Shown piece by piece: positions 7,524 through 12,438 of a stretch of DNA of 64,000 nucleotides. Origin of the DNA: Paralichthys olivaceus (taxonomy: Eukaryota; Chordata; Actinopteri; Pleuronectiformes; Paralichthyidae); assembly GCF_024713975.1 (NCBI RefSeq), contig NC_091099.1, positions 11,823,501 to 11,887,500 on the forward strand, read 5' to 3'. Both the position numbers and the translations under genes were made by a program. Positions within the stretch are counted from its first letter, which is position 1. Every line of letters starts with the position of its first letter. Below the pieces are notes generated by a model. The model did not search any database and was not told the DNA's origin. It saw only the letters and a list, made by a program, of their open reading frames with translations.

Positions 7524-10500
7524 TCACCTAAGAGATGTGACAGCCCCACCAGGCACTACAGAGAACCGGTCCTTGGCTTTTGGAGTCCGTCTGGCCCTGC
7601 CCTGAGGTGCAGGAGGCTGAGGGAGTCCCTCCATTCTGCGATAGTTGCTCTCCAGCCTCTCCTTTCTTTGCACTCCTTCGTGCATCACACTGGCAGTGAA
7701 GTCTCGCTCATTGAGGAAAGCAATGGTCTCGTCCCTCTTGCGGCTCACATACCCCTTGAGAACAGCATTGTAGGGATTTGAGGCGCCATCTGCGTCCGGA
7801 TCTTCTTGCTGGTGTTTGAATTCCATGCGAGTGATAACAGGCAACAGGAACTGCTTCCCTTCTGTCACCACACCACCATTCCTATGTGATAAGCCCAAGG
7901 CTTCTGAGACGAGGCGGGGGGGCAGAGGCACCAAGTCACAGCCTGAGCGTTTGTCCACATACTGCCCAAACTCTCTCCTCACCACAGCAACATCTTGCAG
8001 AGACTGACTCCTTCGCTCCTCTAGGTCTGTAACTATTCGATCAGGATATGTCCGGCCAAATACCACACCTTAACAATGAAGATAGCAAAGAAAGCATTAA
8101 AAGTAGCATATGATCTTTTTTTATTTGACAAACTTGTTTTAGAAAGATGTGAACCGTTCACCACATGGCCTCGTTTCTCACCTGCGCGCCGAAGCATTGA
8201 CGCAGGACATTTCCAGGGTTTGTGAATAAGCTCATCAGGCACATCCGCAAGTTCAGGACACCATCTCCTTACGTAGCTGCCATAGGGGTCACATGTCATC
8301 GCTGCATCTACAGGGTGCATGACAAAGTTCCAGTGGTCCAGACCACACATGCCCCCATTCTGCCACATCATGGCATCAATGGCGACATCTGCATCCAATA
8401 GGGTGTCCTAAACACAAGTTAACATTAGATACAGGCAGTAAATTACTGTGTGTTGCTATACATGTTACGTTTACAGGTGCATTTTGTGCCTGCATGCATG
8501 CACATCTCACCTGGAACCAACGGTAGCCTTCTTGCCAGGGCAGGTGGAGATATGCTATGAGGAACGATGCCACCACATGTCTCATGTAGTTGTTCATCCA
8601 GCCTGTCAGCCATAACTGCCTCATGGCTGCATCCACCAGAGGGAAGCCAGTTCGACCACGTTGCCAGGCCTTCAGGTGGCCACGATCAGTGCTCCACCGC
8701 AGAGCCTAGAAATACACAGAAGATGAATAATGCTCGATAATAAACTGCTTTACTTCGTGTGATATGGGCTTCTATATACTAATGATTTTGTTTTGAGTAA
8801 CAATCAAAGGTAAATGTTCCTACCTTGTATGGAGGTCTGAGGGACTCCCAGGGGAGGTCAGGAAACAGTGTTAACTGCCAATAGGCCAAATCTCTCCAGG
8901 CCAGCTTCCGTTGGAACTTTGGGGGACGACATCGTGCCCCTTTGGCATCCCACAACAGCCAGCGTGGGCTGAGCTGACCAAAGTGAAGGTAAGGAGACAG
9001 AGAGCTGGTGTTTGGAGCATCCGCCCTGCCCGACTCTTTTTCATACCTATACACACCTAGGACATGTGGAAGTAATCATAAGGTACTGTTAACTCAACGC
9101 TATGTTTCTTATGAATATGTGTACAATATTTTTTATGGTATTTAAGGGATGTTACATAAATTGAACAGGAAAAAGGTTTGCCACCACTGGTTTACAATGA
9201 GTCTCACCATCATTAAGAAAAGCCTCTAGCTGCGCATGTGCTCCTTCTTCACTGAAATCCCAAGACTTCCGAATGTCACCTGCCCAGTCAATCTGAAATG
9301 AACACAAGATAATCCACATGATCTCATTGTTTTCCATTATGATTGTGGGCTAAAGCTTGGTCAAAGACTACAGCTCTGCTGTTGACACTGACCGTTGTGC
9401 CGTCCTTCCTGCGAGGCATGAGTGCCAACTCTAGAGCATCTAAAGAAACACCCTGAGGCCAGTGGGCAGGTGTGGGGAGAGATGCAGGCGGGTCCAGTGG
9501 AAGCCCTAGTGCAGATTCTGGGTTCTGTTTACAGCAGCTCATGAAGTGAGACACTGAACCTATCCCTATATCAGAGAAGAAAACAGACGTTCTCAATAAT
9601 GGCACAGTGCATTTCAGCTTGGATTGCTTACGACATTCAGTACAGTGTGGTCACCAAATTGTGACTTACCTCTGAGTCCCACACCCTCCGTGCTAACAGA
9701 GTAAGGGTCTCTGAGACAGTAAGAGTGGAACATCCTGCATTGAACACCAACTTTCTGCAGAGCGGACACCACCACATCGTCCCTCTCCTTTAGCCAGGGC
9801 TCATACAGGGCATTAGCCAGCACTGCTCTCGCCCCAGTCTCCTTTACCAGCTCCTTAAGGGTACGCAGAGAAGATCCCACCCCATTGCCCACCCCATTTG
9901 CCTTGAGGAAGACAAGATGGCTGCCAATGCGCTCCAGAGATGAAGAGAAACAGGACAAAGCTTGATGAAGCCAGTATTTGCCTGTAAAGAGAGACAGTAT
10001 TTTTGCAAACTGGTTATAAAACCTGTGAAGCCACAATAGAGAGCAATGCCTCGAGGGGTAGTTATGCACATGCTTTAACAGAATGCAACTTACAAGCTCC
10101 TCCCATAGCCACAGTAATTCCTGGTCCCTCCTCTTCTTCAGGGCTCCAGATGAACACAGGGATGACAGGTGCCCCATTCTCCAATGAACCAATGAGAGCT
10201 GGATTGTCACATAGTCGCAAATCCCTCCTAAACCACAGAAGTACGGGTGGTGGTGCTGATGGAGAGGTGGGCATACCTACAACCTGCTGGCCATTCCCTT
10301 CCCGCCGCTTTCTCCTGTTCTTAGAGCGTTTTAGTTTCTCCGATTGATTGATTGAATCTCCCTCTTCTGTCGTTTGGTCACCTTTTAAGACTGCATCTTG
10401 TTTGAAAAATGAAGTATATGGTTTGGATACACACACGCTTTGACTTGTCCCTGGTGTCTCTTTATTACATTTGTCAACATGTGTGCTCTTCTGAAGCTCA

Positions 10501-12438
10501 GTCTCTTGGGTTGTCTGTGGTGGGCACATCACGCCCCAGGGTTCTTTTTCCGATGAGTGGTTTTTTTTTCTCCCGCCACCTACATCTGCTCGCTGGGTGC
10601 GGCTGCTGCTTCCCTGAGGCTGAGATGCTGAGGTCAGTTGAACAGAGCTGCTTTGATTTACTTTGGCTCCAAGCTGCTGAAGTTTGTATTCTTCACTACA
10701 GGTTGACGGCTGGTGATCTTTAACATCCAGTACAGACAGCGCCAGTGCAAGTTCCAGGTCATCATTTTCTGTCTGCAATTAAATTAGAACAACCCATTAT
10801 TATTACCACCGACTGTTGACAGCTTAGTTGAGGAGACAGATATCATGAGCACTGGTTGCAATTACAGGTGAAGATAATTCAAGCATAACAATTGTAAGAA
10901 TGCACGTATTTGTTTTTAGCCACATCAATATGTGAACATGAAAAAAACCTATGCAGAAACGTGGCTTCAAAATTTAACTGAGTTTAGACTTTTGCAATAG
11001 ATAGGTTATTAGATATTGTTTGGTGTTTTAAGGCCCTCCACAATGCTCCAAAGGTTTTCTTTCTTATTTGACCAGATTAGACGTGTTGTTGCCATTCAGT
11101 TGGTGATAGATTTATAATGTAAGATGGATGGTATACTACTACAATTTTTTTAATGTTTATTTTAGCAACACGTTGTATTTTAGACCTCACTTTTCTTCAC
11201 AGTGCTCTGCTGTAGAGGTGTGATCAGAAACTGAAAACAGGTCCTAGTGTAGGAGTGATTATGAAAGGTAACTTTATAAACACGTGTTTATAATAAAAGG
11301 ATTGGCTTCATATTTTGATTGTATTTGTTTGTTTGGTTGATTGACCTTCATTATATTACATTGAGTTTAACTGTTAGCTGTTAGCCAGTGTGTACATAAA
11401 GCGAGAGCTGCGTGGATAGCCTTAGCAAGAACTACCAAGCTAACTTTTTATACTATTCGATAATTACACAAATTGCATGTTACATTATCGCATATGTTAT
11501 TACATACGCTGTTGGTGTTAGAAAATAAGTTTTAAAAGCCTAATAGCTTGAGCCCAAACCCTTGACTTTTGTCTCACTTGAAAACTAAACATGTCAACAT
11601 TGGGTTAGCCGCTGCTAGCACAGCAGCTAACGGCTAACACGAGCTTTCCTGGCTCTGCGGGAACAGGAGGAAAGAACCGTGGAGGAGAGAGTGTTGTGTT
11701 TCTCAGAGGAGAAACTAATGGCTGAATATTCAGTGTAAGAAGCAGTGACATTTCACGTGTGTCCAGTAAGATGTGTGTGTCCACATGTGTCCGTTCTGCC
11801 AAAGTAAAGGTGAGTTAATTCCACCCACTTACCTGGTGGCTAACACGTTAGCCATGACAGTTTCCCCTTCAAGCTGAGTTTGTTTAGATTTTTCATGTAG
11901 TGGTCAACATCACTGAATTTAGCTCGAATTAAAAAGTGAAATAAAGTGATCAGCTGCCATACTTATAATAACAACACAAAGTACAACACATTACAGAACA
12001 TGGATTGTTCACCGCTCTCACTTTAGGATTATTTTTAACAACCTTTATTGTCATTATCTTCTTTTCAGAATATACAATATTATATTCCTAAACATAATCT
12101 ATACACATTATATCTTATCTGTGTGTGTGTGTTGTGTACTTCTCAACCCATGTAATAAATTATTGAGGCACAAGACAGTAGTATATCATCGACAAACACT
12201 GACTGACCTTAGAGAAATATTCCAGGTAGATGGAGGTGAGTCTGCAGTGCAGGGATCTGTTGGCCGAGGACAGGGGCTGGATGAGGGACTGGAACTGTGT
12301 GTGGGTCTCCTGCTGCCCCAGGACGGACACACACATCGCAAAGAAACCCTCTGGATCCTCTCGACCCACCAGCACTTCTCTCAACAACTGTCTCACCAAG
12401 GCTTTGCTGTCCTCTGCACCAGCCGCTGAAGGAGGCAT
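7524..12438 (-). CDS. Plant-like cryptochrome/photolyase-family flavoprotein with a UIM-like motif
   Basis: Exons (transcript order): 12438-12208, 10772-10094, 9981-9670, 9565-9393, 9292-9208, 9056-8824, 8705-8511, 8407-8182, 8068-7524; 892 aa, every junction in phase. Residues 1-77 are a helical segment of unknown type. Residues 79-93 (ENDDLELALALSVLD) match a ubiquitin-interacting motif. Residues 223-235 are Lys/Arg-rich, a possible nuclear signal. The photolyase fold starts near 252 (VLLWFRRDLRLCDNPAL); the FAD region has TSSLSPYLHFG (510-520) and WQRGRTGFPLVDA. Trp575, Trp628 and Trp651 keep the 53- and 23-residue spacing of the classical electron-transfer triad. Asp647 sits four residues before Trp651, where plant cryptochromes have Asp and most photolyases Asn. 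Exon 9 adds a tail of about 155 aa. Light sensing or signalling is plausible; DNA repair is not shown. Intron 1 (10773-12207) holds nothing recognisable. Confidence 0.9.

Follow-up and report, generated by a model that had tools for sequence, protein, structure and literature searches.

A cryptochrome 6 gene with a changed CPD-repair pocket in the fish Paralichthys olivaceus

What kind of flavoprotein is encoded by a gene with a photolyase/cryptochrome core in the fish Paralichthys olivaceus? The original prediction, made from the letters of a 64-kb stretch of contig NC_091099.1 (positions 11,823,501 to 11,887,500, hereafter the window), was of a plant-type cryptochrome from an under-described animal lineage, distinct from CRY1/2/4, CRY-DASH and repair enzymes, and able to form a neutral-radical flavin state. 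We found that the gene is real, intact and correctly read, yet is an ortholog of an already published family.

Results

Gene structure

The cry6 gene lies on the minus strand (12438-7524), from a start ATG at 12438 to a stop TGA that ends at 7524, and its nine coding exons encode an intact protein of 892 amino acids (aa). All eight introns of the model have GT...AG borders, and the phases agree. Strand, coordinates and residue numbers had been predicted correctly, with W575, W628, W651 and D647 all found in the 892-aa translation. A Pfam search of the protein found DNA_photolyase at aa 254-402 (E = 2.1e-30) and FAD_binding_7 at aa 541-737 (E = 4.7e-67, 225.8 bits); judged by these E values, the photolyase/cryptochrome core is far beyond chance. 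The part encoded by exon 9 (aa 712-892), searched alone against Pfam, gave no match at E <= 10. The features of the gene are:

Exon 1, 12208..12438, minus strand: aa 1-77, N-terminal helical domain of the N-terminal extension (reading frame, donor GTCAGT, AlphaFold2 model)
Exon 2, 10094..10772, minus strand: aa 78-303, UIM-like helix, linker, basic cluster and start of the antenna alpha/beta domain (Pfam DNA_photolyase from aa 254)
UIM-like motif ENDDLELALALSVLD, 10725..10769, minus strand: aa 79-93, strict UIM pattern with a weak Pfam UIM match
Basic cluster KRSKNRRKRRE, 10299..10331, minus strand: aa 225-235, [RK][RK]x[RK] matches at 225, 230 and 231
Exon 3, 9670..9981, minus strand: aa 304-407, antenna domain, VGLR (pl1 motif) at aa 404
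Exon 4, 9393..9565, minus strand: aa 408-465, exon 4/5 junction matched by a pufferfish Cry6 primer (19/19)
Exon 5, 9208..9292, minus strand: aa 466-493, exon 5/6 junction matched by a pufferfish Cry6 primer (19/23)
Exon 6, 8824..9056, minus strand: aa 494-571, FAD domain, K544, WRDLAY (pl2 motif) at aa 547
Exon 7, 8511..8705, minus strand: aa 572-636, FAD domain, W575 and W628 of the Trp triad, N610, Y611 and H614
Exon 8, 8182..8407, minus strand: aa 637-711, FAD domain, D647 (flavin N5), W651, N653, MWQNGG (pl3 motif) at aa 650
Exon 9, 7524..8068, minus strand: aa 712-892 and stop, end of the core followed by the C-terminal extension

Primer sequences published for Cry6 of the pufferfish Takifugu rubripes (PMC5394683) matched the model at 19/22, 19/19, 18/20 and 19/23 bases, a total of 75 of 84; at primer level the pufferfish gene is thus close, not identical, with 9 mismatches in 84 bases. 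Because two of these primers cross exon junctions 4/5 and 5/6, both junctions are supported from outside. One of four Xenopus Cry6 primers matched the model above background (16 of 20 bases). Contamination by plant or bacterial DNA was considered and set aside, given the nine spliced exons and the pufferfish primer matches across two junctions.

Other features were seen elsewhere in the window. On the minus strand, large frames at 24041-35408 encode homeodomains (three stretches in 24834-29660 and one in 24044-24763) as well as C2H2 zinc fingers, of which one is ZFHX3-like, as in a ZFHX-type zinc-finger homeobox gene. Frames resembling exons of an EF-hand protein lie at 48148-49996 on the plus strand, with EF hands confirmed in 48705-49070; we take this gene to be similar to calumenin/reticulocalbin. 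A GATA/GACA tandem repeat of about 600 bases at 43164-43789 is open in three minus-strand frames and accounts for the long open reading frames there, which are artefacts. Finally, three frames lie at 53579-58017 (minus strand), one of 373 aa rich in proline and serine and two that look cadherin-like to the eye; none of the three had a Pfam match at E <= 0.001.

Family identity

Comparison with solved structures placed the protein nearest to class III photolyases and plant cryptochromes. A PDB search gave 51 sequences at E <= 0.001, among which the class III photolyase PhrA (4u63) scored best (298 bits, core 39% identical), and plant cryptochromes scored 240-247 bits, with cores 34-35% identical for CRY1/CRY2. 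The class I photolyase 1dnp scored 158 bits, animal-like, (6-4) and animal cryptochromes at most 155 bits, and CRY-DASH proteins 93-140 bits. CRY-DASH, CRY1/2/4, (6-4) and class I photolyase were set aside on this score gap, the family motifs and two of the trees described below (30 and 29 rows). That the protein is not CRY1/2/4, (6-4) or CRY-DASH, as had been proposed, is clear from the scores and family motifs; the tree tests are weaker.

All three motifs published for the PCRY-like subfamily (pl1 VGLR, pl2 WRDLAY and pl3 MWQNxG; PMC9498864) are present in the fish protein, at aa 404, 547 and 650, in a comparison made by motifs only. The same source reports MWQNxG in 100 of 103 PCRY-likes and in 0 of 2144 others, and describes the subfamily from Neopterygian fishes and frogs.

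The N-terminal extension is about 250 residues long, compared with about 200 reported for Xenopus CRY6 (PMC11520951). A KaiA/RbsU-like four-helix N-terminal fold was one mark of CRY6 membership that we looked at. A single-sequence AlphaFold2 model of the exon 1 region predicts four helices (6-23, 29-40, 46-59 and 61-76; mean pLDDT 79); this domain had no PDB match at E <= 0.001, KaiA/RbsU not being among the chains listed. A strict UIM pattern occurs once in the 892-aa protein (aa 79-93), where the Pfam UIM score is 16 bits, below the curated cut-off of 21. This putative motif has the core DLELAxALS in common with the DI-UIM of Xenopus CRY6, 4 residues apart in numbering (PMC11520951). By its pattern, the basic cluster at aa 225-235 would be the counterpart of the CRY6 NLS/NoLS. 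As read from the sequence, the N-terminus has the CRY6 layout: a helical domain, then a UIM-like helix and then a cluster of basic residues. Together with the plant-CRY-like core and the C-terminal extension, this layout resembles CRY6 of Takifugu rubripes and Xenopus tropicalis as described in PMC5394683 and PMC11520951.

Our combined findings thus indicate that the gene is almost certainly the fish ortholog of cryptochrome 6 (CRY6, PCRY-like, animal CryP). The likeness to CRY6 was assessed by primers, motifs and layout. These three lines settle the family; the trees alone would not rule out every alternative. The idea of an under-described animal lineage has to be given up, fish and frog members having already been published as CRY6 (PMC5394683, PMC11520951) and as PCRY-like (PMC9498864).

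Phylogenetic placement

We inferred four trees: one of 11 rows and one of 29 rows from the FAD half, a 30-row tree, and a tree with a lone (6-4) row. The 30-row tree combined 20 of 89 relatives with 10 other rows, including the fish protein; of four plant sequences it omitted one, 6lz7, and three of its rows were about half-length. These three rows and L009 were dropped from the tree with the lone (6-4) row, and L009 from the 29-row tree.

The 30-row tree grouped class III CPD photolyases, plant cryptochromes and the fish protein with support of 97/92, leaving class I, DASH and animal/(6-4) proteins outside, and the 29-row tree recovered the grouping of class III, plant cryptochromes and the fish protein (96/90). 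The 11-row tree left the fish protein unplaced beside class I, class III and plant cryptochromes (53/60), and in the remaining tree it joined the single (6-4) row, which has a very long branch (77/78). The fish protein's own branch is also long (1.34-1.9). The placement with class III and plant cryptochromes, supported in two of the four trees, therefore depends on sampling and is not robust. A clade of the fish protein and plant cryptochromes alone was not recovered in any of the four trees.

In AU tests of the 30-row tree, joining the fish protein with DASH gave p = 0.008, with class I p = 0.013, with plant cryptochromes p = 0.046 and with animal/(6-4) proteins p = 0.091. In the tree with the lone (6-4) row, neither plant cryptochromes (p = 0.14) nor class I (p = 0.262) were rejected as partners. 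In the 29-row tree the p values were 0.033 with plant cryptochromes, 0.070 with DASH and 0.155 with animal/(6-4) proteins. Two of four trees group the fish protein with class III and plant cryptochromes, and it lies apart from animal/(6-4) proteins in three of the four, the exception being the tree with the lone (6-4) row; a DASH grouping was rejected in one of two trials and an animal/(6-4) grouping in neither of two.

Flavin site and repair pocket

The classical Trp triad had been read correctly: W575, W628 and W651, with spacings of 53 and 23, align with W306, W359 and W382 of E. coli photolyase. Since E. coli photolyase has them too, the triad and its spacings are, by this alignment, generic to the photolyase/cryptochrome superfamily. 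The alignment also bears out an Asp at the N5-proximal position, with D647 falling on the N5 Asn of E. coli photolyase (N378 in the literature numbering) and on the Asp of four plant cryptochromes. Asn occupies the N5 position in all 89 relatives examined from prokaryotes and viral contigs (the best 80 among the matches listed and 9 from viral contigs), versus Asp in fish CRY6. Plant CRY1/CRY2 resemble the fish protein in both the N5 Asp and the Trp triad, whereas PhrA, unlike the fish protein, keeps the N5 Asn and the repair residues. The phrases DTLLDAD and YVRRW, which had been read as typical of plant cryptochromes, are only partly diagnostic, as PhrA has DTLVDAD and YVRRF at the same places.

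For the CPD-repair pocket we used a list of contacts, E274, W277, N341, R342, M345 and W384, in the E. coli literature numbering. Two of these six residues are kept in fish CRY6, W277 (W547) and N341 (N610); in the alignment, E274 is replaced by K544, R342 by Y611, M345 by H614 and W384 by N653. The relatives came from 90 loci besides L001, one of which had no reading frame passing the filter and was left out; among the resulting 89 (prokaryotic, the best 80 among the matches listed, plus 9 from viral contigs), E274 is found in 78 (Q in 11), R342 in 89, M345 in 88 and W384 in 89. The four replacements argue against CPD repair, consistent with the proposal that this is not a repair enzyme, and fish CRY6 probably does not repair CPDs; with four of six contacts lost, the pocket therefore points to a sensor rather than a repair enzyme.

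In the four plant cryptochromes W277 is replaced by Leu, N341 by Asp or Asn, M345 by Val and W384 by Tyr (Asn in the fish protein), and R342 is kept, so that in the alignment their pocket changes lie at partly different positions from those of fish CRY6. Because of this difference, the loss of repair residues and the gain of Asp may have happened twice, although the tests are weak. Asp647 itself may have arisen by convergence with plant cryptochromes, given that none of the trees unites the two (AU p 0.03-0.14). We consider it conceivable, though doubtful, that CRY6 and plant cryptochromes arose as sensors from separate class III photolyase ancestors, each losing the repair residues and exchanging the N5 Asn for Asp independently.

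Discussion

The best overall reading, to which we assign a probability of about 0.7, is that this CRY6 ortholog is a blue-light flavoprotein sensor whose extension binds ubiquitin. Blue light would excite FAD in the core, and electrons hopping along W651, W628 and W575 would reduce it. Asp647 would protonate the flavin anion to give a neutral radical, and the changed flavin state may in turn alter the C-terminal and N-terminal extensions. With the UIM-like helix of the N-terminal extension binding ubiquitin, light would thus change the handling of ubiquitinated proteins. The gene model, the family, the N5 Asp, the Trp triad, the changed repair residues and the motif layout are observations of this analysis, whereas for the proposed steps we draw on relatives: the Xenopus CRY6 motif pulls down K48 polyubiquitin (PMC11520951), under constant blue light pufferfish Cry6 mRNA stands 4.17-fold above its dark level (PMC5394683), and diatom CryP contains a neutral flavin radical on isolation (PMC8591175). 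By analogy with these, the full route from light through flavin to ubiquitin output in fish CRY6 is a tentative proposal, with the odds somewhat against it. Several observations speak against this reading: in Xenopus the full-length protein was found in the cytoplasm, though the basic peptide alone went to the nucleolus, and the mRNA showed no difference between ZT0 and ZT11 (PMC11520951); in the fish protein the Pfam UIM score is below the cut-off, the placement with class III and plant cryptochromes varies with sampling, and W277 and N341 are retained.

The predicted neutral-radical state is plausible for fish CRY6. In plant cryptochromes the flavin radical is protonated via the N5 Asp (PMC10940379), and diatom CryP, isolated with such a radical, is placed by a review in the same plant-like group, which occurs in both algae and metazoans (PMC8591175). 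Diatom CryP, which we compared by description only, binds MTHF and is reported there to have a C-terminal extension of about 70 residues. Our literature search, thin on subscription journals, found no paper recognisable as photochemistry of an animal CRY6, and PMC11520951 names chromophore binding and photosensitivity of CRY6 as future work.

Other explanations account for parts of the evidence. A working class III CPD photolyase kept by a fish would agree with PhrA as the best-scoring solved structure (298 bits), with prokaryotic relatives of up to 42% identity among the matches listed, and with the retained W277 and N341, but it is very unlikely given the replacement of E274, R342, M345 and W384 and an N5 Asp where 89 of 89 relatives examined (the best 80 among the matches listed and 9 from viral contigs) have Asn. 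Nor do we favour a true plant cryptochrome (PCRY) that animals kept or acquired, sister to Arabidopsis CRY1/2. Despite the N5 Asp, the 240-247 bits to plant cryptochromes and the orthology with plant Cry genes suggested by PMC11520951, the fish protein joined plant cryptochromes in none of four trees (AU p 0.046, 0.14 and 0.033), and PCRY-likes are reported to be without any PCRY-specific motif (PMC9498864), which leaves this origin improbable. The original prediction of a plant-CRY-like protein with Asp at N5 holds, but the tree results and the missing motif make the label "plant-type" a loose one.

Finally, the N-terminal extension could do the work of a light-independent ubiquitin adaptor, with the flavin core a relic scaffold. 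The UIM-like helix and the basic cluster are present, the Xenopus peptide binds polyubiquitin, and Xenopus Cry6 mRNA is highest in testis and ovary (PMC11520951). Against a relic core, the protein has kept the Trp triad, the N5 Asp and a complete FAD domain (225.8 bits), and we regard such an adaptor as unlikely.

Already published but with few measurements to date, CRY6 is a candidate vertebrate flavoprotein in which light sensing and ubiquitin binding may be linked. The present model adds one more intact fish CRY6 sequence and names the pocket residues K544, Y611, H614, D647 and N653, which bear on whether CRY6 senses light in the manner of plant cryptochromes or in a mode of its own. If Asp647 is convergent, the CRY6 pocket, with Lys, Tyr, His and Asn at the positions of E274, R342, M345 and W384, would represent a distinct photochemistry coupled to a ubiquitin-binding extension.
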